Assembly: GCA_964035545.1 (NCBI GenBank)
Contig: OZ037770.1
Coordinates: 5,003,662-5,067,661, forward strand
Length of the DNA: 64,000 nt
Reading direction: 5' to 3'
Source of the DNA: Bugula neritina
Lineage: Eukaryota > Bryozoa > Gymnolaemata > Cheilostomatida > Bugulidae
The stretch's first letter is position 1. Each line of letters opens with the position of its first letter. Made by a program: the position numbers and the translations under genes. A model generated the notes under the pieces. The model ran no database searches. It saw only the letters and a list, made by a program, of their open reading frames with translations, and had not been told where the DNA came from. Below are positions 27,244-58,468 of the stretch, in pieces.

Positions 27244-27256
27244 ATGGCAACAGCTG
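27244..27256 (+). CDS. Initiator exon (proposed)
   Basis: ATGGCAACAGCTG in a strong start context (GCCATGG), followed directly by GTGAGT. It ends in phase 1, which matches the phase-1 acceptor of the next exon and gives M-A-T-A-D. An upstream ATG at 27181 is closed by a stop after seven codons and could be a short upstream frame. The exon is short, so this call rests on context and phase. Confidence 0.55.
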
Positions 27257-30200
27257 GTGAGTGAATTTAAATACTATTTTATACACTTATTTCTTGGAAA
27301 GTAGAAATGTTTAAACTCTGAAGATATGTTGATATTATGCCACCGCAATATAATATATATATAGAAGTATTTTATTATCACTACTTCCTATGATACTGTT
27401 TTATGTCACCAATTAGTGTATTACTTTGAAAATAGTACAATAGATAATATTATGCAAGCAGTTGGGTTAGAGTTGTCTTATCTCAAAAGAATAAACACTG
27501 AACTATAAACTATACATTAAATGATTATTTAGAAAGAATATAAAGCTATCTAATAAAATATATGTTACTCATGGTTATGATTACTAAAATCTACCATATA
27601 ATTAATTTATTCATTCAGTAGTTGACAGGTGTCAGAATCATAGACAGCACCTGCTAGCACTGTGTAATAATTGAACTGTCACTGTATGATGTTACAGATA
27701 ATATGAGAATCTGGTTCAGACATTCTGGACAGCCTCCTGTAAGCTGGTCAGATGTCCAGTCTGCTAATACCAAGTCATATACTACTGCTGAGGTGAAACA
27801 TGAAGTTGGGAGTTATGATATCACAGATCTTAAACTGGAGGGAACCATTCCAAGTAACATTGGGGAGATTACTGGTGAAGCCCTGTGTCTATGTGTTTTT
27901 AACCTAACTGACAGAGCAAGTCTGGACAAGTGAGTGTCTACTAAGATAGCTGTGTAAATGATAAATGAGTTCAGTTGTGTAATTTATTAAATAATAATCG
28001 ATAATATAAGGTGCTGAAGCTGAGGCATATTTTTGCTCATAATATATTCATACAAAATAATATACATCAACATAGTAATATGTGCAACATTGTATGTAAT
28101 CTAAATGAGCTTATAATTGTAGAAACTAGGGAGTGTAAAACTGCCTGTACTGTTACTCAATATCATTGATTAAATCATGTTTTATGTATATATGTTTTGT
28201 CATCAACTACACAAATTAGTCAATATATTAACTTACATAGCAATTTGGAGTGAGACCTCATGTACTGTAAACTAACAGCTAACCTTGCATAATGAAGCTT
28301 CCTCTCGTTACCTTCAACATAATTTAGCTGAAAATCTTTGCTTTTCTTTGCGACAATATATCTGTTTCTTGCATGTTTTTTTGTTGAATACACAAGCAGC
28401 ATAATATCAGAATATATTTCTCGGAAATGTTGTTAAACAGCATAAAAAGAATGCCGATGCACAATATACTTTACATCTGTTTAGTATCTTGTAATCCGAC
28501 ATAAAATAGTCAAAGTCAAGAATAAGCAGCATATATAGTATATTCATTTTGATGGTGGACATAAACACATGACACACTTTATATTACAGTTTATGTCAGC
28601 TAACTCAGTTAGAGAAACTATACATAGGAGATAATCCTCTCAACACAATACCAGAAGCTGTGTCATCACTCACATCACTTGAAGAGTTGGATATGGAAAG
28701 CTGTGGATTATCTACTCTACCTGAGAGGTTTGTGTGCCAAAATATTTCCTTGGTTTCAAACCCTCAATATTTCACATTTTTAATGCTTATCAAGTAGTGT
28801 TATGCTATGTTATCATATATTGCCAACGTATATTAAAAAACCTAAGTATGCATTTTTTGAACTTATCTAAGAGTTTGTCTTAAGGTGGAAATAATATAAT
28901 TGTATGGTGTGCCATTGTATATCATTATATCACAAGAACTTTTTGTAATTATTAATAAAACAGCGATCTGTAGTTTACGTGCAACCATGGCAATGATCAA
29001 ATTTTTCTTGGGCTCTTGCGACAATCACTTTTGCTATCCATTGCCGCAATGAATTTGTTAAGGCTACTGCATTTTCTCTAGCCTGGTTGACTGCGCCTCA
29101 AGCAATATAGTATGTACGGTGTATATTATTATGACACAGTAAAATACATATATTCTACCCTTTCTGAGTATTGCAGTCTATGCCAGCTGACTCAGTTAGA
29201 GGAACTGAACATAGCAAAGAATCCTCTCAACATAGTACCTGAAGTTGTGTCATCATTCACACCACTTAAAGAGTTGTATATGAGGGTCTGTAAATTATCT
29301 ACTCTACCTGAGAGGTTTGTGGAACACAGTCTTTCTTGTTTCAAACACTCGATAATTCACATGTTGATATAATGCTTAGCAAGTATTGCTAATTAGTATG
29401 TCACTATGTATTGTTGAAAAGCATAAAGCTATAAATTAAAATTTTCTTGAGGCTATATGATATTAGAGTTTCTCAAATAACTCGAAAATAAATATGTTTC
29501 AGTTATCTGGCATTACATTTCCTATTGCTATAAAACCTTCCTTAACAAATACTATAGCACCCACTTTTTATAGTTTACTAGAATCTATTTCAAATTAAAT
29601 GTCTTTTACTTTGAATATACGTTGTCGCAATAAATTTGCTTTTTTTGCATGTTATACTTGATTGAAGACACAAGCATAGTATACAGAGTACATACTATTA
29701 TCCTGATACAGTGGATTACATATATACCATATACTTTATATTACAGTCTATGTCAGCTGACTCAGTTAGAGAAACTATACATAAGAGAGAATCCTCTCAA
29801 CACTGTACCAGAAGTTGTGTTATCATTCACATCACTTAAAGAGTTGGATATGATTTGCTGTAAATTATCTACTTTACCTGAGAGGTTTGTGGAACACAGT
29901 CTTTTTTGTTTCAAACACTCAATAATTTACATGTTGATATAATTCTTACCGTATATTGCTAATTAGTATGTCACTGTGTATTGTTGCAAAGCATAAAGTT
30001 ATAAATTATTAGTTTCTTGAGGCTATATTGTATTAGAGTGTTTCAAAACTTGAAAATAAATAATATATTTCAGTTATCTGGCATTACATTTCCTATTGCT
30101 ATAAAACCTTTTTAACTAATATTATAGCACCCACTTGTAGTTTACTATAGTGTGTATTTCTCATCAAATGGTTATTAGAGCCTTCTGTATTTCACTTTGA

Positions 30201-33200
30201 ATATGCCTTAGCGTAATAAATTTGCTACTTGGGTATTTTACTTGATTGAGTATGCAGTGCATGTTGTGATACAGTAGACTAAATATATCACATACTTTAT
30301 ATTACAGTCTGTGTCAACTGACTCAGTTAGAGAAACTATACATAGGAGATAATCCTCTCAACACAATACCAGAAGTTGTGTCATCACTCACATCACTTGA
30401 AGAGTTGGATATGGAGAGCTGTGGATTATCTACTCTACCTGAGAGGTTTGTGTGCCAAAATATTTCCTTGGTTTCAAACCCTCAATATTTCACATTTTTA
30501 ATGCTTATCAAGTAGTGTTATGCTATGTTATCATATATTGCCAACGTATATTAAAAAACCTAATTATGCATTTGTTGAACTTATTTAGGAGTTTGTCATA
30601 AGGTGGAAATGATATAGTTGCATGGTGTGCCATTGTATATCATTATATCACAAGAACTTTTTGTAATTATTAATAAAACAGCCATCTGTAGTTTACGTGC
30701 AATCATGGCAATGATCAAATTTTTCTTGGGATCTTGCGACATCACTTTTGCTATCCATTGCCGCAATGAGTTTGTTAAGGCTACTGCATTTTCTCTAGCC
30801 TGGTTGACTGCGCCTCAACCAATATTGTATGTACAGTGTAGATTATTATGACACAGTAAACTACATATATTCTACCCTTTCTGAGTATTGCAGTCTATGC
30901 CAGCTGACTCAGTTAGAGAAACTGAACATAGCAAAGAATCCTCTCAACATAGTTCCAGAAGTTGTGTCATCACTCACAACACTTAAGGAGTTGTATATGA
31001 GAATCTGTAAATTGTCCACTCTACCTGAGAGGTTTGTGGAACACAGTCTTTCTTGTTTCAAACACTCAATAATTCACATGTTGATATAATGCATAGCAAG
31101 TATTGCTAATTAGTATGTCACTATGTATTGTTGAAAAGCATAAAGCTATAAATTAAAATTTTCTTGAGGCTATATGATATTAGAGTTTTTCAAAACTTGA
31201 AAATAAATATGTTTCTGTTATCTGGCATTACATTTCCTATTGCTATAAAACCTTCTTCAACAAATACTATAGCACCCACTTGTGGTTTACTGGGATCTAT
31301 TTCACATTAAATGCTTATTAGCTTTCGGTATTTTACTTTGAATGTGCCTTGTCGCAATAAATTTGTTTCTTGAATATTTTACCTGATTGAATACGTGTCA
31401 GTTTACTTCATTTAGTACACACCAGCAAATTATGACCTAACATTAAAGTTTGCTCAAAATCCATTTAAATCTACTATACATGGTATTTTTATGTGCTGGT
31501 TTTAACTACGCATAACAGAAAAGGCTGGAAGGGGATTCCCCAACATTAAAGCACAGGTCATTGTCATATGCACTTAATATTCTATATGTGCAGACCGTTA
31601 CGAAAAATTCGTAACGGTCTGTAACCAAAACTAGCTGAACAATTAGGGAAAAACATGAGAAATGAAGCAAAATTGAAAAGAACTTTGATTATTTAGGTGT
31701 ATTTATTGGTGTTTTACTAGTTTTTACCAAAAAACCATGTTCATTACCAGTTAAATTGTGAAAAATAGCCAAAAACTGAAGATTTCGAGTGTGTACTAAA
31801 TTAATTAAAATGACCCATACACAAGTAGAGTATACACAGTATACAATAATATCTTGGTACAGTGAATTACATATATTATGCACTTTATATTACAGTCTAT
31901 GTCAGCTGACTCAGTTAGAGAAACTAAACATAGCAGATAATCCTCTCAACACAGTACCAGAAGTTGTGTCATCACTCACATCACTTAAAGAGTTGGATAT
32001 AGAGAGCTGTGGATTACCTACTCTACCTGAGAGGTTTGTGGAACACAGTCTTTTTGTTTCAAACACTCAATAATTCACATGTTGATATAATGCTTACCAA
32101 GTATTGTTAATTAGTATGTCACTATGTATTGTTGAAAAGCATAAAGCAAAAAGTTGGAATTTCTTGAGGCTATATGATATTAGACTTTCTCAAAACTCAG
32201 AGATAAATATGTTTCAGTAATCTGGCATTACATTTCCTATTGCTATAAAACCTTCCTTAACAAATACTATAGCACCCACTTTTTATAGTTTACTAGAATC
32301 TATTTCAAATTAAATGTCTTTTACTTTGAATATACGTTGTCGCAATAAATTTGTTTTTTTGCATGTTTTACTTGATTGAAGACACAAGCATAGTATACAG
32401 AGTACATACTATTATCCTGATACAGTGGATTACATATATATCATATACTTTATATTACAGTCTATGTCAGCTGACTCAATTAGAGAAACTATACATGAGA
32501 GAGAATCCTCTCAACACTGTACCAGAAGTTGTGTTATCATTCACATCACTTAAAGAGTTGGATATGATTTGCTGTAAATTATCTACTTTACCTGAGAGGT
32601 TTGTGGAACACAGTCTTTTTTGTTTCAAACACTCAATAATTTACATGTTGATATAATTCTTACCGAATATTGCTAATTAGTATGTCACTGTGTATTGTTG
32701 CAAAGCATAAAGTTATAAATTATAAGTTTCTTGAGGCTATATTGTATTAGAGTGTTTCAAAACTTGAAAATAAATAATATATTTCAGTGATCTGGCATTA
32801 CATTTCCTATTGCTATAAAACCTTTTTAACTAATATTATAGCACCCACTTGTAGTTTACTATAGTGTGTATTTCTCATCAAATGGTTATTAGAGCCTTCT
32901 GTATTTTACTTTGAATATGCCTTAGCGTAATAAATTTGCTACTTGGGTATTTTACTTGATTGAGTATGCAGTGCATGTTGTGATACAGTAGACTAAATGT
33001 ATCACATACTTTATATTACAGTCTGTGTCAACTGACTCAGTTAGAGAAACTATACATAGGAGATAATCCTCTCAACACAATACCAGAAGTTGTGTCATCA
33101 CTCACATCACTTGAAGAGTTGGATATGGAGAGCTGTGGATTATCTACTCTACCTGAGAGGTTTGTGTGCCAAAATATTTCCTTGGTTTCAAACCCTCAAT

Positions 33201-36200
33201 ATTTCACATTTTTAATGCTTATCAAGTAGTGTTATGCTATGTTATCATATATTGCCAACGTATATTAAAAAACCTAAGTATGCATTTTTTGAACTTATCT
33301 AAGAGTTTGTCTTAAGGTGGAAATAATATAGTTGTATGGTGTGCCATTGTATATCATTATATCACAAGAACTTTTTGTAATTATTAATAAAACAGCCATC
33401 TGTAGTTTACGTGCAATCATGGCAATGATCAAATTTTTCTTGGGCTCTTTCGACCATCACTTTTGCTATCCATTGCCGCAATGAATTTGTTAAGGCTACT
33501 GCATTTTCTCTAGCCTGGTTGACTGCGCCTCAACCAATATAGTATGTACAGTGTATATTATTATGACACAGTAAACTACATATATTCTACCCTTTATGAG
33601 TATTGCAGTCTATGCCAGCTGACTCAGTTAGAGAAACTGAACATAGCAAAGAATCCTCTCAACATAGTACCAGAAGTTGTGTCATCACTCACACCACTTA
33701 AAGAGTTGTATATGAGGATCTGTAAATTATCTACTCTACCTGAGAGGTTTGTGGAACACAGTCTTTCTTGTTTCAAACACTCAATAATTCACATGTTGAT
33801 ATAATGCTTAGCAAGTATTGCTAATTAGTATGTCACTACGTATTGTTGAAAAGCATAAAGCTATAAATTAAAATTTTCTTGAGGCTATATGATATTAGAG
33901 TTTTTCAAAACTTGAAAATAAATATGTTTCTGTTATCTGGCATTACATTTCCTAATGCTATAAAACCTTCTTCAACAAATACTATATCACCCACTTGTAG
34001 TTTACTGGAATCTATTTTACATTAAATGCTTATTAGCTTTCGGTATTTTACTTTGAATGTGCCTTGTCGCAATAAATTTGTTTCTTGAATATTTTACCTG
34101 ATTGAATACACAAGTAGAGTATACACAGTATACAATAATATCTTGGTACAGTGAATTACATATATTATGCACTTTATATTACAGTCTATGTCAGCTGACT
34201 CAGTTAGAGAAACTAAACATAGCAGATAATCCTCTCAACACAGTACCAGAAGTTGTGTCATCACTCACATCACTTAAAGAGTTGGATATGGAGAGCTGTG
34301 GATTACCTACTCTACCTGAGAGGTTTGTGGAACACAGTCTTTTTGTTTCAAACACTCAATAATTCAAATGTTGATATAATGCTTACCAAGTATTGTTAAT
34401 TAGTATGTCACTATGTATTGTTGAAAAGCATAAAGTTATAAATTACATATTTCTTGAGGCTATATGATATTAGAGTTTCTCAAAACTTAAAAATAAATAT
34501 GTTTCAGTTATCTGGCATTACATTTCCTATTGCTATAAAACCTTCCTTAACAAATACTATAGCACCCACTTTTTATAGTTTACTAGAATCTATTTCAAAT
34601 TAAATGTCTTTTACTTTGAATATACGTTGTCGCAATAAATTTGTTTTTTTTGCATGTTATACTTGATTGAAGACACAAGCATAGTATACAGAGTACATAC
34701 TATTATCCTGATACAGTGGATTACATATATATCATATACTTTATATTACAGTCTATGTCAGCTGACTCAGTTAGAGAAACTATACATAAGAGAGAATCCT
34801 CTCAACACTGTACCAGAAGTTGTGTTATCATTCACATCACTTAAAGAGTTGGATATGATTTGCTGTAAATTATCTACTTTACCTGAGAGGTTTGTGGAAC
34901 ACAGTCTTTTTTGTTTCAAACACTCAATAATTCACATGTTGATATAATGCTTACCAAGTATTGCTAGTTAGTATGTCACTATGTATTGTTGCAAAGCATA
35001 AAGTTATAAATTATAAGTTTCTTGAGCCTATATTGTATTAGAGTGTTTCAAAACTTGAAAATAAATAATATATTTCAGTGATCTGGCATTACATTTCCTA
35101 TTGCTATAAAACCTTTTTAACTAATATTATAGCACTCACTTGTAGTTTACCATAGTGTGTATTTCTCATCAAATGGTTATTAGAGCCTTCTGTATTTTAC
35201 TTTGAATATGCCTTAGCGTAATAAATTTGCTACTTGGGTATTTTACTTGATTGAGTATGCAGTGCATGTTATGATACAGTAGACTAAGTATATCACATAC
35301 TTTATATTACAGCCTGTATCAACTGACTCAGTTAGAGAAACTATACATAGGAGATAATCCTCTCAACACAATACCAGAAGTTGTGTCATCACTCACATCA
35401 CTTGAAGAGTTGGATATGGAGAGCTGTGGATTATCTACTCTACCTGAGAGGTTTGTGTGCCAAAATATTTCCTTGGTTTCAAACCCTCAATATTTCACAT
35501 TTTTAATGCTTATCAAGTAGTGTTATGCTATGTTATCATATATTGCCAACGTATATTAAAAAACCTAATTATGCATTTGTTGAACTTATTTAGGAGTTTG
35601 TCATAAGGTGGAAATGATATAGTTGCATGGTGTGCCATTGTATATCATTATATCACAAGAACTTTTTGTAATTATTAATAAAACAGCCATCTGTAGTTTA
35701 CGTGCAATCATGGCAATGATCAAATTTTTCTTGGGATCTTGCGACAATCACTTTTGCTATCCATTGCCGCAATGAGTTTGTTAAGGCTACTGCATTTTCT
35801 CTAGCCTGGTTGACTGCGCCTCAACCGATATTGCATGTACAGTGTATATTATTATGACACAGTAAACTACATATATTCTACCCTTTCTGAGTATTGCAGT
35901 CTATGCCAGCTGACTCAGTTAGAGAAACTGAACATAGCAAAGAATCCTCTCAACATAGTTCCAGAAGTTGTGTCATCACTCACACCACTTAAGGAGTTGT
36001 ATATGAGAATCTGTAAATTGTCCACTCTACCTGAGAGGTTTGTGGAACACAGTCTTTCTTGTTTCAAACACTCAATAATTCACATGTTGATATAATGCAT
36101 AGCAAGTATTGCTAATTAGTATGTCACTATGTATTGTTGAAAAGCATAAAGCTATAAATTAAAATTTTCTTGAGGCTATATGATATTAGAGTTTTTCAAA

Positions 36201-48200: not shown

Positions 48201-51200
48201 CCCCAACGGCATTCTACAATGCAGCTTATATGCTGGCAGTTGTAATAAGTACTGCCAATAGCAAGGTTACTATCACTGCTAGCTCTGTGCAGTATGTAAC
48301 CTCTTGAATAATTGCGCCAATTTTAAACTCTTGGAAGTTGGCCAAGTTATCATATCGCAGCCAGCCACCGGAGACAAAGCATCAGACCTATTCATATAAT
48401 ATTATACTGATGCACTTGGTAGCAGAGTGGCTAATCTAATATAGTTCATAGTTCAACACCCTTTACTTTGGGAATACAGCCTCTTTTTTTAGGTTTACCT
48501 TACAAAGCATGAAAATATCTAAACTGATATTCTGATAATTTAGAGGTACATTTTGAAAACTAGGTTAATTGCACTTGTTTGCACAACAACAATAATAAAA
48601 TAGATATTATGCCGTATAATAAAAACACACATAATACTATATAATATATTATAATGATAATAATATAATATTATAAGTACCATTACTGCATTTTATAAAT
48701 CACATGGTTGCCAAAAAAATGTATCACAAATTTTGTAATTATACATCAAAACTAGAACTAGCTAGGCAGCAGGTTAGAATAGAGTAAATTTTTAAAACAT
48801 GAAATCATGATTTGACTATTGTTTTATTTAGGCCAACCAACCTAGGAATACAAGATTGGGTTTTAGCTGACAGTTTATTATAACATTTAGCTTTTGAGCC
48901 AGCAGCACTGGCACTTTTGAAGTATAGGCAAAGTTAGTGAAGCGAGACTAACAAGCACTCAAATACAAGGCATATTGAGACGCAATAACAAGTCAGGAGC
49001 GTATAAATTGATAAGAATGTGGAAGGGGGACTATGTTTTTCAACAAGCTATAACTTAAACATGAATTGGCTTTTGAAAAAAATAAAAAAGTATATTGGAG
49101 AACATAACTTTCTTTATCTTTTCATATTTTTTTTGTTCCTGTGACATTCAACCTGTTCGAGCTATCAGTGGAACATTGTTCATATAGAACATAAAGCACC
49201 TGGCAAAGAGCCAGAAAATGAAAAGTATGACCTTAAACTAACTGTGTATCTTTTTCCTATCCTTTCTGCGCACATGTCCACACCATTGAAGAGGTTTCCT
49301 CTTCGTGCCTATTGCGATGGTTTTTATTTTGGCCTCCTCTCTTATATTATCACATGTTACATGGTCTTCCCACTCTAAATTGTAAATGTGTCGAAGCATC
49401 CTCATCTCAGTTGCACTTATCTTGTCTTCTTGTCTTTGAGTCAGTGGCCATGTCTGATATCCATACATCAGTGTAGTTTTTATTGCCATCTTGGATAACA
49501 GAACCTCCAGCTTAGTGGAAATTTTCTTATCTTCTTGTCGCGGACTGTTCTGAAAACTCAATTTTCATAGATTTTTTTAAAATTGACTTGGTCTTAGTTT
49601 TTCTTATTTTCCCTGTTTCCTTGAATGTAGAAGGTGGCAATGCTGCAAGTTTATGAGCCATTAAAGAGTCCGCATCCAAATTCTTGGTCTGCTTGAGTAC
49701 AATGGTTCGGGCATATATGACTTCAGTATCATACACAGTGGTATTAAAAACCTTAATATGCCTTTGAGATGATACCATTGTCTTCACTTAAGATATACAA
49801 GGATTTATTTAACCCCTCCGACTAATTCACTTTAAATTCTTGTATAGATGCTTTACCTATAACAAAAATATTGTCAATAATTATTGCTGAATAACTGATG
49901 ACTTTCTCTGTTTCAATATTGACAAGAGCAGCTGGGTGGCATTCTTCTTTGAGTAAGACATTGCAGAGTTCAATCTTCTTTTTGACAAACCTTCTGTTCC
50001 TTGAATCAGATTAGATTCTTGATTGCATCTCTTCCTTATGAGTAGTGGAAGCATTTATTTCAGACTCATCTCTGATGTCACTGAGGCCTTACTGTATCTT
50101 GTTGCATGCAGATCGAAGTGCTATACACCCACACCTTGACAATTTCAGTTTTATTGGTGATGCCAATGGTTCCCCCTTGCTGTGGCCAAATCTCACGAAG
50201 GTCACCTCAATGGTCATGTTTGACCAGATGCCATTGAGCTGGCCGAGTTTATGATGCATTGTGTGATTACCAGCCACGAATTCAATCCTTACATCTTGTG
50301 GCATGATCTACATGCTATACAGATATAAATACATTTCCTCTTCCATTGCTAGGTGTAAGGCCCAGTCTCCTTCTCTATCAGCTATGATGTGGGTGTTGAT
50401 GGTAAAATTTGGTCTAATAAAGCACATGACCCACAGTTTTGCTGTTCTTGAGCTCTCTGAAATCTTAGTCAACATCTTTTCAAGGTTCTCCATGCTAGTG
50501 ATTACACTTTCATCAAAGACTGGCTTCAACAGCTCTCCCACCAATATTCTCAGGCCCAGTACATTCTGGGAAGACTTTTTTTATTTAGCATTTTGGGGAA
50601 ACTGCCAAAAGTAGAATTAAATACTTTTACCAAATCCGTTTCAACCATTAGTGTTCCATTACACTGAACATAGGTCATTAAAGTGGAAAAATTAGTTGTA
50701 ATTTTTTATGAAAGGAGGTTGGTATGAAAAAGGTAGGGAACCATTGTTCTAATGGATGTATCACTTCCCCCAGCATAAAATAGATTCTTATTCATAAAAA
50801 AAACTGTTTACAAATGTTTTTAGAGATAAAGTCATATGTGCTGATTGTAGAAGGAGTTTTTGAAAGCAAAAATGTCAATATTTAGATAAATGATGTGTCA
50901 ATAATAATGCAATTAAATTATGTTAAGAAGTCATGGTGTTGTGTTATTAAGGTTGTTGGCCCCTTTTTCTAACTTTAAAAAACATGGCTAAAGTTTTAAA
51001 ACTGAAAATAACTTTTAAATTGGCAGCTCAACAAACCTTTTTGATAGGCATGCTAGTTTGAAACAAATTGCTATTTAGCACACATGACAATGGCGTTGCA
51101 TTTCAATTTTGCAGAACCGCCTTTAGTTTTATTTGTTGGACATATTTGTAATCAGCATTTAAAATTACCCCATACAGTAAATTTTCATGAATTTAGAACA

Positions 51201-54200
51201 AACTGATGCAGAGATGCAAGGAAATTATAAACACGGCAAGGCTAGGTTAAACTTAAAAAAATGAATGATTAGGGCTTAGCTTAGTTACCCTTAGGGATCA
51301 TTTGCCTATTACTAAAGAATACACATGATAAAGGCACATACATCTTTATTATATTAATTTCTAAAGATTTCAAAGCATTGGAACCTTAAATTTAGCCTCG
51401 GTGGGTAGATACATTTGAATTATAAAGAATCATCTAGTGCCTAGCAGCCATCTTGAATTTCTCAAAATGCTCAAGGGTAAGAAGTCCACATCCACCTGGA
51501 AACATTTACCTAGACCCTATATTTGAATAATCAGAAGAGAAAAAAACCTTTATCCGGGAGTGCGAACCTAAGTCAAAAATTGGTGTTTTTCTGCCAGACT
51601 AAATGACCCATCTCTTTGATTAGTCTAGAATATTTATGAACATTCCTGTATTCTCATTAGGAAAAACCCGGTAAGTCTATAGGTATATGTACACTCAGAA
51701 TTTGTGACATTATTGTTATACTAATATTGGGTATCTGTATGAAAACTATTATATCAATTACCTGTAGTTAGTTCTAATAATAGAAGTACTATATATTATT
51801 AGAATACAGAGACTACAGAAGTTACAGGAACTCAACATTTCACAAAATAACTTCACCAGTCTACCATCTTCAGTGTGTGCATTGAGTAATCTGCACACAC
51901 TAAATATATCCTACAACAGATCCATGAAATCTTTGAACCCTGAGATACTACAGCTAACACATCTTGGGTCCTTCAATACAGATGGATGTAATGCTCTAAC
52001 ATCTCCTCCACAAGAAGTCTGTAAAAGAGGACTCGATGCTGTGCGACAATACTACACAGACTTGGCTGAAGGTGCTGGTAGAAATCTTCCATTTGCGACA
52101 ATAGCAGTGTTGGGGAACACCATGGCAGGTAAAACCAGTCTAATTCGAACATTACAGAGCACTGACAGGAAGAGAGTTCTGACTGACAGAAGTCTTAATG
52201 CAGAGCATGATGAGACCACAAAGGTGTTTAATGTGGAAGAGGTGGAGGTGGATGGTACAACTCTTCGTCTCATAGATATGGGAGGCCAGGAGGTCTACCA
52301 TATCACATACCATTTAACAATGAGACAGAATTGTGTACCAGTCATTGTAGTCAACATGGAGCAGTATGATCAGATTTCGAAAATATCTACAGACAGAGAG
52401 GCTGTGAGAAAGCTGGCTTTTGACTTCATATCTCACCTCTATCTCGCTCATCCATCTCTTGGCCCACCTAAGCTTGTTTTCACACACAAGGACAAGTTTC
52501 CGAGGGAAGTTTTCCAACAGCTTCGAAGAAATTTTCTTGAAGTGTCTGAGCAGTTATGCAAAAATATTCTTGAAGAAGAGAAAAGTTTAGAAGGTGACTT
52601 TGCTCGAATTCAACATTTCACTGAATCAAATGGAAAAATCTTTGAAAAGGAAAGCATCTATGAGGTTGGGAAATTTGATGAGTACAAGATATTCGAATTG
52701 ATTAAAAAATCTCTTCTTCAAAGTTGCCAACAATTTATCAAACTCCTTCCAAAAGTCTGGGAGGATGTCAACACAAAAGTATTGTCATTGCAGTCTGCAC
52801 ACAATACCTTTGATGAAATCTTGGCAGAGATAAAGAAAGAACGGAATGACATTGATAGAAACCAATTAGATACGATTATCATGTACATGCATGATTGTGG
52901 AAAAGTTCTCTGGTATAGGAATATTGATGCACTCAGGCCATACATATTTCACAAGATCACGGAAGTTACCAAACTACTGTGTGTCTTGTATCACCATGAT
53001 CCAAACATCTGGCAGAGCAGAGTAGATCAGTTCAAACCATATTTTTCAAGAGGAGTGAGAATTGAGAAGCAGGACATTGAAGAATCTGTGAACTACTTCA
53101 AAGCAACCGGCTTAATGATGCAATCCCTTCTTGAATATGTGATTGCTCAGGAAACTTCATTCAGCGATCCAGGTGATGTTGAAATTGGGCTTCACTTGCT
53201 CAGCACGTTCCGTTTGTTGTATAGCCCTAGGAATGATGAATCTGATGATCCTTACTTCATAGTCCCTCAGTTTGCCACAGAATCCTACAGCCTCTCCTAC
53301 ACTCCACAAAAGGCGCTGATGCTTCATACCGAGACTCAGTTTAATGGTCTGGCATTACCGCAGCATGTCTACCATCAAATGACGGTCGGTTTGTTAGAAA
53401 TGTTTTCTAAAGAGTTTGCTACAATGCAAGTGAAGAAGAATGGTGCTAACGTCTACCAAGATGAAATATACACACAACTGGTACACGATTACGCATTGAG
53501 AAGAGTTTTACTTTACATTTCATCTGATGCGTCCAACATTTCCAGAATGTGGGAGAAACTCATTTCGGTCAACAACAACATCCTCAGACATGTTATGGAG
53601 ACTTGGACTGCTAGTCGACCAGTCACTACCTGCATTTGTGCTCACTGCTTGCTACTGGGGGTTTCCTGTCCTAAAAAAGTCCTTCACCCCAAATGGTGTT
53701 TTCGATCCTTAAAAAACCTGCTGTCACCTAATGTCAGAAAGTGTGATGGATCTTCAAAGATGTTATGTAATGAAGAGGAGGTCCCTAGCGTTTTAATACA
53801 CCCATGTATGTTCATTCATAAAATTGAATTTCAACCGAAATATTTTAAATAATTGTTTCAACAAGTAAATATTTACTACTTTGTGTTAAAAAACTTTTAG
53901 TAAAAATTTGAAGCAATTGGTTAAATACTTTGTCTTAATTTTAAAATGGCAACTTAAAAGCATAAGCTCCTATTCACATGTCATTATCTCAGAATTTAAA
54001 TTATTCAACGTTTAATAATACTAATCTTGTTTGTTTTATTCAGGTGAAAAATTGTCAGAAACAGAAACAAATAAGTTGAAGATGCTAGTTGCTGAGCTCA
54101 AACTGCGAGGAGATCAGAACAATTCAACTGGTAAATTCTTTTAGACAGAACTTGATGTTGGTCATTTTACTTAAGTTAGTATAGGAGTATGACCTGTGTC

Positions 54201-57200
54201 ATGAACACACCTGAATAATCAAGGTTCTTCTTAATTTTGCTTGATTTCTCATGTTTTTTTTTCAATCATTCAGCTACTTTTGACTGCAGAGTGAAAAAAA
54301 CCATAACTCTCTGAAATCAAAAGTAGCTCAATAATTAGAAAAAACATGGGAAATCAAGCAAAATTTAGAAGAACCTTGATTTTTTAGGTGTGTTCATTTA
54401 GGCTTTACTACTTTTGGGCAAAACCCATGTTCATTAGCAGCTAAATTGTAAAAAATAGCTATAAACAGGAGATTTCCAGTGTGTACTAAATTAAGTAAAA
54501 TGACCTATGTGTACAGCCACCACTTGATAAAACTCCTTGTTTTGCAAAGCTGGCCATACATGTAGATATCTAAAAGCTTTTTTATGCATTGGTCAATTGT
54601 AATCCATTGCTTTTTTGCTGTTAATGATTAGGCAAAATTTTAACTGTATAGTTTTCAAATGATGACAAAAATCAACTGTTCACATGACTGTCTAGAAATG
54701 TTAGCTGATGATCTGAGTGATCTCTCTGAAGATGATGGCAATCTGTACCTCAATGGAGAGAATGGGGAAGGCCTGAAGTTGATACAACTTGAATTGAAGT
54801 CAACCACCAACCCAAAGATAAAGCAGCTGTTCTCAGATACTGACAAGGTGAATGTATCAGTTGATGAATATATTATGTCTATAGACTCTCTCTACTAGAT
54901 AAACATGTCTAGTCGTTGAACTACTTCTAGAAAAAGATCAGTCTGTGTGACAGCCGATCCGATAGTGGTTACTGTATCAGCTGGTACTTGTTGCTACGTC
55001 AACACGGGTGCTGTTTGGCACAGATGCCTATGTTTTGTGATTCATTTAATGAAGGGTGAATGGATGGAGGACACAGATGCAAGCCACAACTCTATTTTTG
55101 TCTATTGCCAACAGTATATTTTTCAAGTTAGACCTCATTCATACTTAAAATCATACTCATAATTGCACTCATAATGTACTTGTACTTTACTGTAACCTAT
55201 AACCCTGAAAATTACAAACATATTGTTAACTTAACATTAATTACAAAGCTGACAAAACATTTAGTTAATGAAGTTCAAAACAAAAGATAATATACGTAAT
55301 ACTTGATACTTACAATTATTTTGACAGTTAAGAATAGATTGCCTGCATCTTTAGCAGGAGGACAATTGAGCTACACTGACTCATCGGTCAAAAACTGTCA
55401 GTAAATAGCTATCGCGAAAGCTTTCACAAATAGCTTTCGTTACACAATGATTTTTGGAAAGCTGCCAAAAAGCCACTGCAACAGTCTAAATGCAATTTTT
55501 CAGTTTACATCAGTTAACTTTTAATTTTTAGCCATTTTAGTTTTTGAGCTGTGTCTGTTTGGTTAAGGTTCAATCTGTTGTCACATGCAAATTAGGATGT
55601 ATATATAGTTTTGTGATTTTTAGCTACTTTGATGTACTGGTTTGTGCACCTGCTTGTAAATTTCTATGGCTTATTTTGGGTTTTTGAGAAGACTGGGAGT
55701 AGCATAAGTAGTTTTCCGAGAGAGATCTATAAAAAGCCAGGTGTAAATAAAGAGGAGAGGTAGAGAGGTCAGAGGTGTTTTGGAGAAGTGAATGGGATGT
55801 AGTGTTAACATTGCCCAGCAGTCTTTGTTGAGTAATTCTAGTGGAGCAAATATTTAATAATGTCGTTTTTTCCTGAAACCTTTAAACTTCTCTGTACTTC
55901 TACCATAATTTTCTGTTGCATCTGATAGTATCTTTAGAATTAGTGAACTTTTTGTTAACATGGTTTGGCTTTGAAAACTCAGTGCATATATGAGACTTTA
56001 AATGTCAAAATATATGACATGTCAATATAGCCAAGCATCGTCATTAGTTACTTCTATTGCTTTACCATGCAATTTATATACTTGATTTGTAGAAATTTAG
56101 GGTTGATTGCAACCTATTATCAATTGACCATAATCAATGTAATTGCAGCCTACTCTTGTTTTTAAACCATACTTTAATAGTCTTTTTTAATGCTTAAACG
56201 ATTACCAAATGCAATGGAATGTTTCATTGTTAAAAATATCATTTGCTGTAATACAATAGTTTATGCTACTCAAATAGCTAATAAACATATAAAAGATAAA
56301 ATACAAAAAGTAACTGAGGTGTAAAATGAATTTTACAAAAGGTTGTTTGACTGGTGTTTTACAAGACATAGAACTTTGAGGCCGGTTTAGAGTTTTAAAA
56401 TCTAACTTCATATTAGCTATTTATTTTTAAAGTGTTTCATCTTATACTGGATAATTTGACTCCTGTACGTCACTACTTTATGCAATACTCTAACTATATT
56501 TGTATCCAGGTGTTCAGTATGACCAGAGAGAGAGAGGAAGAGCTCTGATAATAAACAACAAGCATTTTGTTGAAAGACCAGACTTATGCAGGGAAGGTTC
56601 AGATGCTGATGCTGAGAACATGTCTGTCATGTTGAAATCTCTCAAGTTTGATGTTGAGACAAACACAGACCTAAAGGCAGGGGTATGTTGTTGTTATGGT
56701 GAAAACAATGCGAGCACTATTTAACCATTAAACCTCAAAAATTCACACAATGATGGACTGTAACTGTTCAGTTTATCAATGCCCAAAAATTAGGACTATA
56801 TAGAAAACCCTAAGCATGTTTGCTGATCACAATTTTCTTGTTTGCAGGTTGGATAATTATTATTTTATTCAGTTTTCATAACTTTGTATCAGTTATTAAA
56901 CATATTTCTTTTCATATTGGTAGGAAATGATGTCTGCTGTGAAGTCTGAGATAAGAATAGAGAAAAACAATGGCTTGGGCTGTCAAATACTGGTTATTAT
57001 GACTCATGGTGGAGAAGATAACTGCATATATGGAGCTGACCTTGAGCAGGTCAACCTTACAGACTTCTATGATTTACTTGCTCCTTTGAGTCTGAAGCCT
57101 AAACCTACAGTTGTTATCTTAGAAGCTTGCAGTGGAGGTAATTACATTTTTGTATAGGAAACTTTCATTTTTAGTCAAGTAGTGAAAATAATACAGAGAC

Positions 57201-58468
57201 CCTTGAAAAGCTCTTTCTGAACTGATCAAATTTCTTTTTTACTCACGATGCAAGTTTAAATGCATTTGTTTTTCTTACAGCAAACATTGATGTGAATCCA
57301 GACAGATCAGGTCTTGCAGCAGCTCAAGAAGAAGAAACTGAAGCTGTCTCTTCTGTACATTCTGAAGCTAATGATGATGATATTGTATATCCTGAAACAC
57401 CCAGTGTAATAAGACCCATCAGACCTGTCTCACCACCAGAATATAGAGTAGAAGAACATATGACAAGACTGGATGTTGATAATCTTCTTGTTCTGAAGAG
57501 TAACGTCTGCTGTAAGTATAATAAGAGACAGTGATTGGCTGATATTTCTAAACTGTTGTACTTTGTCACCTATCTAAAAAATGTTCTTTGCCTTTTTCTT
57601 GCGTTACTTCTACATTTTTAATCTTGTTGACTTGATAAGCTTCTTTAAACTGAGGTGACTAAAATGTTTTCTGGAACTTTGAGATTTAAGTTGTAGTACA
57701 CTATAGCTTAAAACATTTTAGACTTTGTCGGACTAGACCATGATTTTGGCTGCATTTAATATTATTATAGCATCAAAAAGACATCCTGAGTATGGATCTC
57801 CCATGATTAGAGTCCTAATATCTTCAATCTACAAACATGCCTGTCACCGTGATCTCTACACCATCTTTCAGCAGGTAAGTTAAAAGCTCAAAAGGTTTTT
57901 GCTATTTTAGCTTTTACGCCAAAAACTATTCCTCATCGTGGCATCTCTTCCATCTCCATGTGTTCAAACCATCATGTCATTTGAAAAAAACAATTTAAGT
58001 TGTTCTGAGTACAAGATAATGTCATTCAATGCTTTATTTGTTTAAGTTGTAGAGTTTAGTCTCTGTTGTTATGGTTTCTTTAGAGTACTGGCTCAGTACT
58101 ATATTGATAGTTTCTCTCCTTTTTTAATATGTTCTTGTAGTCTGCGCTAATAACTGGTCCACTTTATCAAATGACTTTACTGTATCGGACAACTCCAAAA
58201 GTTTTACTACTTAAGATTGTTAAAGTAGGATACAATATTCTAACAGCTGGGAGTTGTACTTTATTACTTTTAGTAGTGAACTGATAAACAGTCTTACTAG
58301 TCATTACTTACTCTACAGGTACAGACTAAACTAGTGAAGAAACTGTATGCAGATGAAGATTCAGAGAGAAGCAGAAATTTGATTGTAATCTGGAAGACTC
58401 TTCCTCCCCGTAAAAGACTTTACCTGTTTCCAGGCTTTGATGGGTTGGATGAAGAGGCCAAATCCTAA
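27244..58468 (+). CDS. LRR - Roc-COR GTPase - caspase-like gene (spliced, whole span)
   Basis: The gene model joins an initiator exon, an N-terminal exon, 18 LRR exons, a 665-residue Roc-COR exon, a short linker exon and five caspase-domain exons, all on the + strand with GT-AG borders and matching phases. LRRs would bind a ligand or partner. Roc-COR is a dimerising GTPase switch known from LRRK and related ROCO proteins. The caspase domain would be a cysteine protease output. No signal peptide or membrane segment was seen, so the product is probably cytoplasmic. An 11-kb transposon nest sits in the intron before the Roc exon. Joining LRR-Roc-COR to caspase rests on splice phase (54130 to 56510); two adjacent genes remain possible. 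Individual exons follow. Confidence 0.75.
27698..27929 (+). CDS. N-terminal exon of the LRR-Roc-caspase gene
   Basis: 232 bp, phase 1 in, phase 2 out, between a TTACAG acceptor and a GTGAGT donor. It encodes about 77 residues starting NMRIWFRHSGQPPVSW, with a YDITDLKLEGTIPSNIG segment that resembles a degenerate LRR or N-terminal cap. No known domain recognised. Its phase-2 end fits every LRR exon acceptor, so any of them could follow. Confidence 0.75.
28590..28727 (+). CDS. LRR exon 1 (type a)
   Basis: 46 residues, two 23-residue LRRs: YIGDNPLNTIPEAV and LDMESCGLSTLPE. Acceptor ATTACAG, donor AG|GTTTGT. The preceding exon leaves AA, giving Asn at the joint. Confidence 0.93.
29177..29314 (+). 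CDS. LRR exon 2 (type b)
   Basis: Two LRRs: NIAKNPLNIVPEVV and LYMRVCKLSTLPE. Acceptor TATTGCAG, as in all type-b exons. The only exon reading LEEL in its first strand (others LEKL). Confidence 0.93.
29747..29884 (+). CDS. LRR exon 3 (type d)
   Basis: Two LRRs: YIRENPLNTVPEVV and LDMICCKLSTLPE. It follows a type-b exon directly, so the first block of the array has lost or never gained a type-c exon. Confidence 0.93.
30308..30445 (+). CDS. LRR exon 4 (type a)
   Basis: Starts the first copy of the 5-kb duplication. Two LRRs with YIGDNPLNTIPEVV and LDMESCGLSTLPE; the following intron starts GTTTGTGTGCC, shared with all type-a exons. Confidence 0.93.
30894..31031 (+). CDS. LRR exon 5 (type b)
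   Basis: NIAKNPLNIVPEVV and LYMRICKLSTLPE. The intron after it carries a MITE M1 copy. Confidence 0.93.
31397..31814 (+). mobile_element. MITE family M1, copy 2, in the intron between LRR exons 5 and 6
   Basis: 418 bp. The empty site is visible in the equivalent introns before exons 10 and 18, which read GATTGAATACACAAG; comparison shows a 2- or 3-bp target duplication (TA or ATA). Confidence 0.92.
31896..32033 (+). CDS. LRR exon 6 (type c)
   Basis: NIADNPLNTVPEVV and LDIESCGLPTLPE; the Pro before TLP distinguishes type c. Confidence 0.93.
32461..32598 (+). CDS. LRR exon 7 (type d)
   Basis: YMRENPLNTVPEVV (Met where other type-d exons have Ile) and LDMICCKLSTLPE. Confidence 0.93.
33022..33159 (+). 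CDS. LRR exon 8 (type a)
   Basis: YIGDNPLNTIPEVV and LDMESCGLSTLPE; phase 2 on both sides. Confidence 0.93.
33609..33746 (+). CDS. LRR exon 9 (type b)
   Basis: NIAKNPLNIVPEVV and LYMRICKLSTLPE. The intron after it lacks the MITE and shows its empty site. Confidence 0.93.
34185..34322 (+). CDS. LRR exon 10 (type c)
   Basis: NIADNPLNTVPEVV and LDMESCGLPTLPE (Met in place of the Ile of exons 6 and 14). Confidence 0.93.
34752..34889 (+). CDS. LRR exon 11 (type d)
   Basis: YIRENPLNTVPEVV and LDMICCKLSTLPE; last exon of the first 5-kb copy. Confidence 0.93.
35313..35450 (+). CDS. LRR exon 12 (type a)
   Basis: Opens the second 5-kb copy (5,005 bp after exon 4). Its first base is C, still giving Ser at the joint (AG+C), and it reads LYQLTQ rather than LCQLTQ. 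Confidence 0.93.
35900..36037 (+). CDS. LRR exon 13 (type b)
   Basis: NIAKNPLNIVPEVV and LYMRICKLSTLPE; copy of exon 5 at +5,006 bp. Confidence 0.93.
36403..36820 (+). mobile_element. MITE family M1, copy 3, in the intron between LRR exons 13 and 14
   Basis: Same intron position as copy 2, 5,006 bp earlier; it was duplicated with the array, not inserted independently. Confidence 0.92.
36902..37039 (+). CDS. LRR exon 14 (type c)
   Basis: NIADNPLNTVPEVV and LDIESCGLPTLPE; copy of exon 6 at +5,006 bp. Confidence 0.93.
37467..37604 (+). CDS. LRR exon 15 (type d)
   Basis: YIRENPLNTVPEVV and LDMICCKLSTLPE; copy of exon 7 at +5,006 bp but with Ile rather than Met. Confidence 0.93.
38028..38165 (+). 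CDS. LRR exon 16 (type a)
   Basis: YIGDNPLNTIPEVV and LDMESCGLSTLPE; copy of exon 8 at +5,006 bp. Confidence 0.93.
38615..38753 (+). pseudogene. LRR exon 17 (type b), frameshifted
   Basis: 139 bp instead of 138: an extra A in CTCTCAACAATAG (others CTCTCAACATAG) breaks the frame in the first LRR. Splice sites are intact. Because all array exons are phase-symmetric, skipping this exon would keep the protein in frame; including it would truncate it. A sequencing or assembly error is the main alternative. Confidence 0.88.
39192..39329 (+). CDS. LRR exon 18 (type c, diverged), last of the array
   Basis: Starts LCWLTQ (Trp for Gln) and its second LRR reads LDMWSCKLSALPE, the most divergent of the array. 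The intron after its donor no longer resembles the others, marking the array end. AG joins A of the Roc exon to give Arg. Confidence 0.92.
39330..40712 (+). other. Intron between the last LRR exon and the transposon nest
   Basis: Unique AT-rich sequence without an LRR exon. With 51710-51811 it makes an intron of about 1.5 kb once the inserted elements are removed. Confidence 0.7.
40713..41236 (-). repeat. 3' LTR of the - strand retrotransposon
   Basis: 524 bp. The other LTR (44490-44893 joined to 51605-51709) matches closely but lacks a 15-bp stretch near 40955. Divergence of a few percent means this element is older than the gypsy copy at 2509. Confidence 0.92.
41237..41247 (-). promoter_or_regulatory. 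Polypurine tract
   Basis: On the - strand GAATGGGGGGT lies immediately before the 3' LTR, the normal place for plus-strand priming. Confidence 0.8.
41283..41526 (-). pseudogene. RNase H C-terminal remnant after integrase
   Basis: Reading on the - strand, a linker-like stretch (DPMTVGAVMTLDAAG) is followed, after a change of frame, by MYLQNFRSKVKSIKGNDN and VGADYLSR. The latter is the typical C-terminal end of gypsy RNase H. RT and most of RNase H are absent, which places a deletion junction near 41400. Its position downstream of integrase is the evidence for integrase-first order. Confidence 0.78.
41533..42528 (-). pseudogene. Integrase of the - strand retrotransposon, catalytically broken
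   Basis: 331 codons, in the same frame as the upstream gag-protease segment and separated from it by a TGA (42532-42534) that falls within the HHCC zinc finger (AHD stop, then GHLG; CQSCDICQ completes it). Catalytic Asp residues are present (CAIDLIGP, ISDQGTQF), but the third residue is Gly (codon 42058-42060, GGA) in NGLVGKFN, where the family has Glu. The C-terminal part has LMHWQGPFNIEEKV, a GPY/F-like segment. Two independent inactivating changes mean it cannot act as written. Confidence 0.88.
42532..43956 (-). pseudogene. Gag-protease and start of integrase, - strand retrotransposon
   Basis: 474 codons. They cover the gag C-terminal half (LLERFNLTQEGYRKK), two zinc knuckles (CFICKDKSHIARNC and CSHCKMNNHNTSDC), a protease-like core with DTG in VMRDTGCGCIVV, a linker (TTRAQAVKEKSG), and the first part of the integrase zinc finger ending AHD at the stop. 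The direct passage from protease to integrase, with no RT between, matches Gmr1-type order. Confidence 0.87.
43853..44393 (-). pseudogene. Gag N-terminal region, two frameshifts
   Basis: It begins MALLERVTQMGKDLG at 44393, passes through a Glu/Lys-rich coiled coil (EEKEKAREEKEKDREKK), breaks frame near 44205, continues through DEMDSYLEQFEWVAEG to about 43860, and breaks again before joining the downstream gag frame. Sequence on both sides of each break is gag-like. Confidence 0.82.
44472..44488 (-). promoter_or_regulatory. Primer-binding site of the - strand retrotransposon
   Basis: Two bases inside the 5' LTR, the - strand reads TGGGGGCTGCTCCGGGA, very close to the tRNA-Pro type site used by some retroelements. 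Confidence 0.72.
44490..44893 (-). repeat. 5' LTR, first part (split by a transposon)
   Basis: Matches 40713 onward up to AACAATGAACAAT, where the 6.7-kb TIR transposon enters; the rest of the LTR resumes after the repeated AAT, at 51605. Confidence 0.92.
45063..45609. other. Transposon interior, left
   Basis: AT-rich, no coding sequence recognised. Confidence 0.5.
45610..46019 (+). mobile_element. MITE family M1, copy 4
   Basis: About 410 bp, most diverged of the long copies; ends GGGCCATTTTACTTTATTTAG and AAATTAAGTAAAATGAT match the family. Lies inside the 6.7-kb transposon. Confidence 0.82.
46526..46699 (-). pseudogene. LINE C-terminal fragment, distal part
   Basis: The - strand reads RKRGRPKKRLMDLMKDEIL and then SDKDFDDRIR before a stop. 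This is the usual tail of a non-LTR retrotransposon ORF2. It is the continuation of 49249-49545, separated from it by the 2.5-kb TIR element. Confidence 0.78.
47590..47665 (-). repeat. tRNA-derived SINE-like sequence
   Basis: The - strand contains an A-box-like TGGTCCAGAGGTTAGAG and a B-box-like GGTTCAACC at suitable distance, as in tRNA-derived SINE heads. It does not fold as a functional tRNA. Confidence 0.45.
48412..48470 (+). repeat. Second tRNA-like sequence
   Basis: TAGCAGAGTGGCTAA resembles an A box and AGTTCAACACC a B box, but they are too close for an intact tRNA. Probably a relic. Confidence 0.35.
49249..49545 (-). pseudogene. LINE C-terminal fragment, proximal part
   Basis: The - strand reads LMYGYQTWPLTQRQEDK, then EMRMLRHIYNLEWEDHVT and QWCGHVRRKDRK, the region after the RT palm in LINE ORF2 proteins. 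Only the 3' end of the element is present, the usual result of truncated reverse transcription. It entered the transposase gene of the 6.7-kb element. Confidence 0.85.
49546..50570 (-). pseudogene. Broken transposase-like coding region of the 6.7-kb transposon
   Basis: Fragments on the - strand in consistent order: VGELLKPVFDES, AKLWVMCFIRPNF and ADREGDWALHLAMEE; then PQDVRIEFVAGNHTMHHK and IEVTFVRFGHSKGEP; then DTEVIYARTIVLKQTK and LMAHKLAALPPSTF. They resemble a large protein family repeatedly found in invertebrate DNA transposons; I cannot name the superfamily with confidence. Stops and frameshifts separate the pieces. Confidence 0.65.
50571..51434. other. Transposon interior, right
   Basis: AT-rich, no coding sequence recognised before the right inverted repeat (about 51435-51601). 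Confidence 0.5.
51605..51709 (-). repeat. 5' LTR, second part
   Basis: GACCCATCTC... to TTTGTGACA matches the end of 40713-41236, completing the split LTR. Confidence 0.92.
51812..53805 (+). CDS. Roc-COR exon of the LRR-Roc-caspase gene
   Basis: About 665 residues in one exon, phase 2 in, phase 1 out. It opens with about three LRRs (LQELNISQNNFTSLP, LHTLNISYNRSMKSLNP, then a degenerate one), passes CKRGLDAVRQYYTDL, and enters a Roc GTPase: P-loop GNTMAGKTS (52113-52139), switch II IDMGGQEVYH (near 52271), and base-recognition THKDKF. The rest (about residues 250-650) is COR-like with a CICAHCLLLG end. Roc-COR is the GTPase-dimerisation unit of ROCO proteins such as LRRK2 and MFHAS1. All G motifs are conserved, so GTP binding is likely. 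Start chosen because AG + A keeps the LRR frame; end at AT|GTATGT because phase 1 fits the next exon. Reading on instead gives a stop at 53852. Confidence 0.9.
54044..54130 (+). CDS. Linker exon after COR
   Basis: 87 bp, phase 1 on both sides, acceptor TTATTCAG, donor GTAAAT. Encodes CEKLSETETNKLKMLVAEL plus KLRGDQNNST, a short charged helix likely to be coiled coil. Its phase-1 end fits both the next small exon (54696) and, directly, the first caspase exon (56510). Confidence 0.72.
54161..54504 (+). mobile_element. MITE family M1, copy 5
   Basis: 344 bp, shorter than the others, with inverted ends GTCATTTTACTTAAGTTAGT and ACTAAATTAAGTAAAATGAC. Lies in the intron after the linker exon. Confidence 0.86.
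54696..54898 (+). CDS. Alternative terminal exon (acidic)
   Basis: It accepts from phase 1 (G+AA gives Glu) after a TCTAG acceptor and reads MLADDLSDLSEDDGNLYLN and onward to a TAG at 54896-54898. Used this way it would end a caspase-free LRR-Roc-COR protein. A GTGAAT donor at 54848 exists but leaves phase 0, which does not fit the caspase exon at phase 1. The residues are acidic with no domain I recognise. Confidence 0.55.
54899..56509 (+). other. Intron or intergenic gap before the caspase exons
   Basis: 1.6 kb, AT-rich. No exon with suitable phase was found. If the caspase domain belongs to a separate gene, its promoter and first exon would have to lie here. Confidence 0.5.
56510..56682 (+). 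CDS. Caspase exon 1: p20 N-terminus
   Basis: Phase 1 in (GT completes a Gly codon if joined to 54130), phase 0 out at GTATGT. It encodes VQYDQRERGRALIINNKHF, with the RGxALIINN strand that opens the caspase p20 fold, then REGSDADAENMSVMLKSLKF, matching the R.G...D...L...L.F pattern of caspases. No death-effector or CARD prodomain precedes it here. Confidence 0.88.
56924..57137 (+). CDS. Caspase exon 2: catalytic His and Cys
   Basis: Phase 0 in, phase 1 out. It contains LVIMTHGGEDNCIYGAD (catalytic His codon 57005-57007; the usual motif is SHG with IYG.D) and VVILEACSGG (catalytic Cys codon 57128-57130; the usual motif is QACRG). Both catalytic residues are kept, but the Gln before A-C is Glu and the Arg after it is Ser, so specificity or pocket geometry may be altered. 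Confidence 0.9.
57281..57511 (+). CDS. Caspase exon 3: intersubunit linker
   Basis: 231 bp, phase 1 on both sides, acceptor CTTACAG, donor GTAAGT. 77 residues, acidic and Pro-rich (EEETEAVSS, EANDDDIVYPETP), ending DNLLVLKSNVCC, which aligns with the strand that opens the p10 part. The Asp cluster is a plausible cleavage region between large and small subunits. Longer than the linker of most executioner caspases. Confidence 0.85.
57771..57874 (+). CDS. Caspase exon 4: p10
   Basis: 104 bp, phase 1 in, phase 0 out. HPEYGSPMIRVLISSIYKH aligns with the G.S.FI..L helix region of the caspase small subunit. Confidence 0.85.
58319..58468 (+). CDS. Caspase exon 5: p10 C-terminus and stop
   Basis: Phase 0, 49 residues and TAA. 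VQTKLVKKLYADED continues the p10 helix, and RKRLYLFPGF is the C-terminal strand (the family ends with a KELYF-like strand). An ATTAAA lies at 58536 and AATAAA at 59047. Confidence 0.86.
   Translation, partial: VQTKLVKKLYADEDSERSRNLIVIWKTLPPRKRLYLFPGFDGLDEEAKS

Follow-up and report, generated by a model that had tools for sequence, protein, structure and literature searches.

The locus considered here raises the question of whether LRR exons, a Roc-COR GTPase exon and caspase exons that follow one another on a single strand encode one protein. The window, that is, the whole 64,000-nucleotide stretch that was analysed (C6:5003662-5067661), can with high probability be assigned to Bugula neritina chromosome 6, in an assembly of 215.8 Mb in 295 contigs. 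The sections of the tzBugNeri2.1 report drawn on here (PMC11480708) describe a B. neritina assembly of 216.00 Mb in 320 scaffolds, in comparison to which the genome as searched lacks a few small scaffolds. The genome was queried with Roc, caspase, the Roc-COR frame and the window caspase, and as only the best candidates were taken from each search, all family counts given below are lower bounds. The order proposed in the preliminary description is borne out within the window, in which 18 LRR exons, one Roc-COR exon and five caspase exons succeed one another on the plus strand. Elsewhere in the window, positions 4001-8000 have a G+C content of about 57%, compared with 30-40% over most of its length, and an Rfam search of this segment at gathering scores returned no match.

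The Roc-COR exon (51803-53805, plus strand, phase 2 in and phase 1 out) sits within an open frame of 694 codons, begins in LRR register and carries the last LRRs. Its Roc GTPase domain (52101-52382, plus strand) matches Pfam PF08477 above the cut-off (3.6e-7), and the sequences GNTMAGKTS, DMGGQ and THKD, which we take to be the G motifs of Roc, are visible, as had been noticed at the outset. The P-loop AGKTSL is nearly invariant (90% or more) across 37 aligned sequences. The COR-A match of the window exon (5e-5, 23.7 bits) falls under the cut-off of 35.3. The AlphaFold model of the exon has a pLDDT of 87.0; its top matches in the PDB are LRRK1, the Roco protein of C. tepidum and LRRK2 (best E 4.4e-25), and the structural match to Roc-COR structures spans most of the exon. 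A Roc G domain with its P-loop, followed directly by COR, places the encoded protein among the ROCO proteins. In comparison to four near paralogs the exon has dN of 0.048-0.066, dS of 0.172-0.221 and dN/dS of about 0.28-0.30, which shows constraint; its frame is intact.

The LRR exons form an array (28590-39329, plus strand) in which each exon encodes two 23-residue repeats and is symmetric, with phase 2 on either side. Seventeen of the 18 are open and 138 bp long, with acceptor ttacag or ttgcag and donor AG/GTTTGT; the remaining exon (38615-38753) has one base too many and is frameshifted. Inside the array is a 5.2-kb tandem duplication (29136-39335, plus strand; copies 29136-34328 and 34148-39335), and since the two blocks are 98.0% identical with introns counted in, a recent expansion of the array is likely. 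A candidate exon further upstream (27703-27929, plus strand, beginning MRIWFRHSGQ, with donor GTGAGT in phase 2) is tentatively assigned as the N-terminal exon of the window gene; its likeness to the N-termini of Watersipora proteins is weak and non-significant. The intron between the array and the Roc-COR exon measures 12.5 kb. Long open frames on the minus strand of this intron (41533-44209) are retroelement-like, with what we take to be integrase-like and zinc knuckle motifs that give a Gypsy-type appearance, and fragments at 49238-49787 (minus strand) resemble, by eye, the tail of a LINE-type reverse transcriptase.

The caspase is encoded by five exons on the plus strand. Exon 1 (56510-56682) has its conserved acceptor at 56510 in phase 0 and is frameshifted in the window copy. 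Exon 2 (56924-57137) contains the catalytic His (57005-57007, in THGGED) and Cys (57128-57130, in EACSG), both of which the preliminary description had recognised. Exon 3 (57281-57511) encodes the end of the large subunit, a 66-residue inter-subunit linker and the start of the small subunit, which continues through exon 4 (57771-57874, with KRHPEYGS) and exon 5 with the stop codon (58319-58468, ending ..LYLFPGFDGLDEEAKS). A stop that appeared inside the small-subunit exon was an artefact of a wrong acceptor and is removed by use of acceptor 57771; this acceptor is used by L048 and L049 and is present in six of seven further paralogs (L073-L078), the seventh, L079, having been missed by the search string. 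The joined window exons match Peptidase_C14 (PF00656) at 7.3e-27 over profile positions 1-213 of 233, and of the three Pfam families proposed as a check, Roc and Peptidase_C14 were recovered, with COR-A below its cut-off. By sequence, the large subunit, to which the PDB match is confined, comes closest to an ancestral effector caspase of the 3/6/7 type (3.8e-16), a result obtained with an early model that had a wrong small-subunit boundary, the matched part being unchanged. With the fold of both subunits and the catalytic His and Cys, the domain is a caspase of family C14. No CARD, DED or death domain was found in the joined model, which begins at the last LRRs (E up to 0.1), nor in the Watersipora proteins P0100, P0103 and P0104 (E up to 0.001); the death-fold prodomain of an initiator caspase is absent from the last LRRs onward.

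Whether the caspase is spliced to the Roc-COR exon depends on the exons between them. The preliminary description had joined linker exon 1 (54044-54130, plus strand, phase 1-1) directly to 56510, a join that must be rejected, as it skips a conserved exon overlooked at that stage, linker exon 2 (54696-54847, plus strand, phase 1-0). Across the window copy and 32 paralogs the Roc-COR exon ends T/GTA in 33 of 33 loci; linker exon 2 is present in 31 of these, with a GT donor at the same codon in all 31. Mean pairwise identity at this donor drops from 0.75 in the last 45 nt of the exon to 0.47 in the next 45 nt, and the in-frame stops beyond it lie at varying distances. With gapped rows excluded, pooled dN/dS amounts to 0.19 for the Roc-COR end (n=17), 0.37 for linker 1 (n=30), 0.32 for linker 2 (n=27) and 0.37 for caspase exon 1 (n=15, including one doubtful match, L047). 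To judge from these ratios, the linker exons behave as coding sequence under purifying selection. The phase match originally claimed at 54130-56510 is owed to an insertion in the window copy; in the paralogs linker exon 2 joins caspase exon 1 in phase 0, with the residues K/VFSMTRKRGRALIINN at the joint. Caspase exon 1 begins AG/GTG in phase 0 with the pattern VxxMTRxR in 26 of 35 rows, corresponding to 25 distinct loci because L045 and L057 are one place. Eight rows are unmatched by the pattern, among which L023, L041, L042 and L049 start alike by eye; L026 has GTA as its first codon. The same 26 rows carry a conserved ATG close to the exon start, and a separate caspase gene therefore had to be weighed.

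At this conserved joint the window copy is longer by two bases, a single additional AG within the run of AGs that follows 56524. Read from 56510 in phase 0, it yields VFSMTREREEEL and reaches a stop after 12 codons, and the phase match between 54130 and 56510 exists only because of the extra AG. As a consequence of the two bases, the window copy either needs a shifted acceptor at 56527 or is broken. Its product may derive from the shifted acceptor, be a ROCO-only protein or reflect recent decay. That the family makes fused receptors while the window copy itself is an allele limited to the ROCO part, or a pseudogene in decay, is a possibility to be taken seriously, which we place just short of an even chance: the extra AG throws the conserved frame into the early stop, and one of the 18 LRR exons is frameshifted as well. 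Set against this are the intact Roc-COR frame with its low dN/dS relative to the four near paralogs, the open caspase exons 2-5, the AG at 56525-56526, which offers an in-frame acceptor at 56527 with the frame RERGRALII, and the symmetry of the broken LRR exon, which makes it skippable.

The wider genome was examined for the same arrangement. Seventy Roc-COR frames were assembled, 64 from the Roc-COR frame search and six more from the Roc search, and among the caspase matches listed a same-strand caspase lies downstream of 59, 63 and 66 of them within 3, 6 and 12 kb, respectively. None of the 70 has a listed caspase upstream or on the opposite strand, and four have none downstream within 12 kb among the matches listed. 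The family thus comprises at least 66 units in which Roc-COR is followed by a caspase on the same strand. The LRR exons follow suit: 146 of the 150 matches listed are on chromosome 6, and for 128 of these 146 the nearest downstream Roc is on the same strand within 30 kb, with 18 having none and no case on the opposite strand. The caspase matches listed merge into 131 loci, 66 with a Roc upstream within 12 kb and 65 with no listed Roc in that interval; the Bugula caspase set looks large, as counted in this genome alone. Judged from their C-terminal ends, proteins P0001-P0037 include no spliced (cDNA-like) form with a caspase, most stopping shortly past the Roc-COR donor. An open frame of 2363 residues at C1:33884494, considered as an intronless copy, was rejected because it is a run of N. 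On a number of small contigs (L001-L003, L005-L008 and others), matches to the Roc profile contain TAA and TAG codons in frame that are read through, and TGA is scarce; these read as in some ciliate codes and are possibly cobiont contigs within the assembly.

A second bryozoan, Watersipora subatra, provides four predicted proteins (P0085, P0100, P0103 and P0104) in which a ROCO region and a caspase occur in one chain, joined as in the Bugula paralogs. The assembly is accompanied by RNA-seq and a transcript-based Ensembl annotation, as described in the sections of its report used here (PMC12902671), and the source names most of the relatives as MFHAS1 homologs. The cleanest full LRR-Roc-COR-caspase protein is P0103 (1219 aa; LRR 53-196, Roc 245-335, caspase 948-1211), which shows 30% identity across 99% of the query and has a Roc score of 26.2 of the 27 bits required; the search of related genomes for this domain order has accordingly returned an example. 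P0085 has LRR, Roc just below the cut-off, caspase and FN3, and matches 93% of the searched region at 36% identity. P0104 is without its N-terminus and has no Pfam Roc match, but its alignment covers 96% of the Roc-COR-caspase query; P0100 terminates inside the caspase. An AlphaFold model of P0104 from a 30-row alignment (pLDDT 68.2, small subunit poorly modelled) has among its top PDB matches LRRK1/Roco together with procaspase-1 and -7, caspase-9 and CED-3. The junction residues are NTDAVYKMTNPRGRVLIINN in P0085 and VYRMTRVRGRCLIINN in P0103, and the P0103 junction agrees with the phase-0 joint in Bugula. Five Watersipora ROCO predictions are caspase-less: P0087 and P0101 stop just ahead of the caspase, P0086 diverges there, and the ends of P0110 and P0112 lie at other places.

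Order and strand in 66 of 70 frames, the selection and fixed donors of the linkers, and the single chains in Watersipora together support the original claim that LRR, Roc-COR and caspase belong to one gene, with the amendment that this is a large family and not a single gene. The comparisons indicate that the LRR-Roc-COR-caspase fusion is real at the level of the family, and on balance it is probable that the window locus is a member of this bryozoan multigene family of receptors. Counted against the fused-receptor reading are the frameshift and broken LRR exon in the window, the four frames with no caspase within 12 kb among the matches listed, the five caspase-less Watersipora predictions and loss of the catalytic Cys in some copies.

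The last of these points bears on whether the caspase part serves chiefly as a scaffold or decoy, being in the main a pseudoprotease. Twenty further copies of caspase exon 2 were compared, the pattern for the Cys motif recognising seven and the other 13 being judged by eye. The Cys is lost in three (L086, L087 and L098; two Ser, one Ala), which are possibly pseudocaspases within the family, and the Gln of QACxG is replaced by Glu in 19 of the 20 (by eye), as in the window. Both His and Cys, however, are kept in 17 of 20 copies by eye; 17 copies adjoin a listed Roc frame, 14 of them with His and Cys, and L094, L095 and L099 are without such a Roc. QAC itself is kept in Watersipora P0085, P0103 and P0104, and the pooled dN/dS of caspase exon 1 likewise speaks against a degenerate role, which we consider improbable. 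One Arg in each caspase subunit is common to Bugula and Watersipora copies, and these residues presumably have a role in the caspase pocket. Very improbable is an arrangement of adjacent ROCO and caspase genes, duplicated as a block and never spliced together, with the caspase starting at the ATG of VxxMTR: that conserved ATG and the ends of P0086, P0087 and P0101 would suit it, but the invariant linker exon 2 donor at which conservation falls, the later stops at varying distances, the residues preceding the Met that are alike in Watersipora (VYKMT, VYRMT) and the four single predicted chains all oppose it.

For the fused receptors, the order of the parts suggests how they could act. The LRR solenoid would bind a microbial or non-self ligand, and binding would alter how the Roc-COR module pairs and its nucleotide state. 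Two zymogen domains of the caspase would thereby be brought together and activated by proximity, a mode established for initiator caspases; they would be cleaved within the long linker between the subunits and then cause cell death or set off a protease cascade. The active state might be a GDP-bound or empty Roc-COR dimer and not the GTP form. Dimerisation of Roco depends on the nucleotide: the C. tepidum protein is mostly a dimer when empty or bound to GDP and becomes monomeric with GTP, according to the study cited (PMC5714945), and because GTP favours monomers there, GTP binding need not activate the receptor.

A sensor, switch and protease in one protein may constitute a built-in death receptor for immunity or self-recognition. 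We put forward tentatively, as a reading that remains somewhat doubtful, that bryozoans possess a large and fast-evolving repertoire of one-chain death receptors in which shuffled LRR exons in tandem arrays provide variable recognition, with a Roc-COR switch and a killing caspase. If so, such a repertoire could act in defence against pathogens or in telling self from non-self between colonies, and no earlier apoptosome-like device would be built on a ROCO protein. For a colonial phylum it is a candidate repertoire for immunity or allorecognition. The ROCO proteins LRRK2, DAPK1 and MFHAS1 are studied in disease, and the way in which the GTPase controls an effector is disputed; in a natural ROCO protein whose effector is a caspase, such control could be read out clearly. 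The preliminary description knew of no described example, and our search of the open-access literature on such fusions and on bryozoan caspases likewise found no description of a ROCO-caspase fusion in the abstracts and sections covered. Neither caspases nor immunity are mentioned in the main text of the papers on the draft genome of B. neritina (PMC7576161) and the Flustra genome (PMC13326412).

Among known systems, the receptor would do in one chain the job that Apaf-1 and caspase-9 share as two. In Apaf-1/caspase-9 and CED-4/CED-3 a nucleotide switch likewise gathers initiator caspases; these are two proteins joined via CARD with an NB-ARC switch, whereas the Bugula family has one chain and Roc-COR. 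Those bacterial and fungal STAND/NLR proteins that bear caspase-like domains also combine a receptor with a built-in effector, but their switch is NB-ARC or NACHT and their protease of metacaspase or orthocaspase type. DAPK1 is a ROCO protein tied to cell death, as proposed for the Bugula family, and is not known to carry a protease domain. We take IPR009003 to be a serine peptidase of the PA clan. This entry, and not a caspase as in Bugula, is assigned to the brown algal ROCO peptidase in the sections of the algal study drawn on here (PMC11378527). The sections used of PMC6337361 place the DAPK1 kinase before Roc-COR, without LRR, unlike the Bugula order. MFHAS1/MASL1-type ROCO proteins share with the Bugula family LRR followed by Roc-COR; MFHAS1 consists of LRR and RocCOR only (same sections of PMC6337361), to which the Bugula family adds linkers and a caspase. 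In the same parts of PMC11378527, the brown algal ROCO receptors are likewise a large family with shuffled phase-2 LRR exons and are proposed immune receptors, and the three members of group 3 carry a C-terminal peptidase, a feature shared with the Bugula family. The algal LRR exons are 72 bp and encode one LRR (PMC11378527, sections as above), compared with 138 bp and two LRRs in Bugula, and the bryozoan family offers a parallel case to these shuffled ROCO genes.
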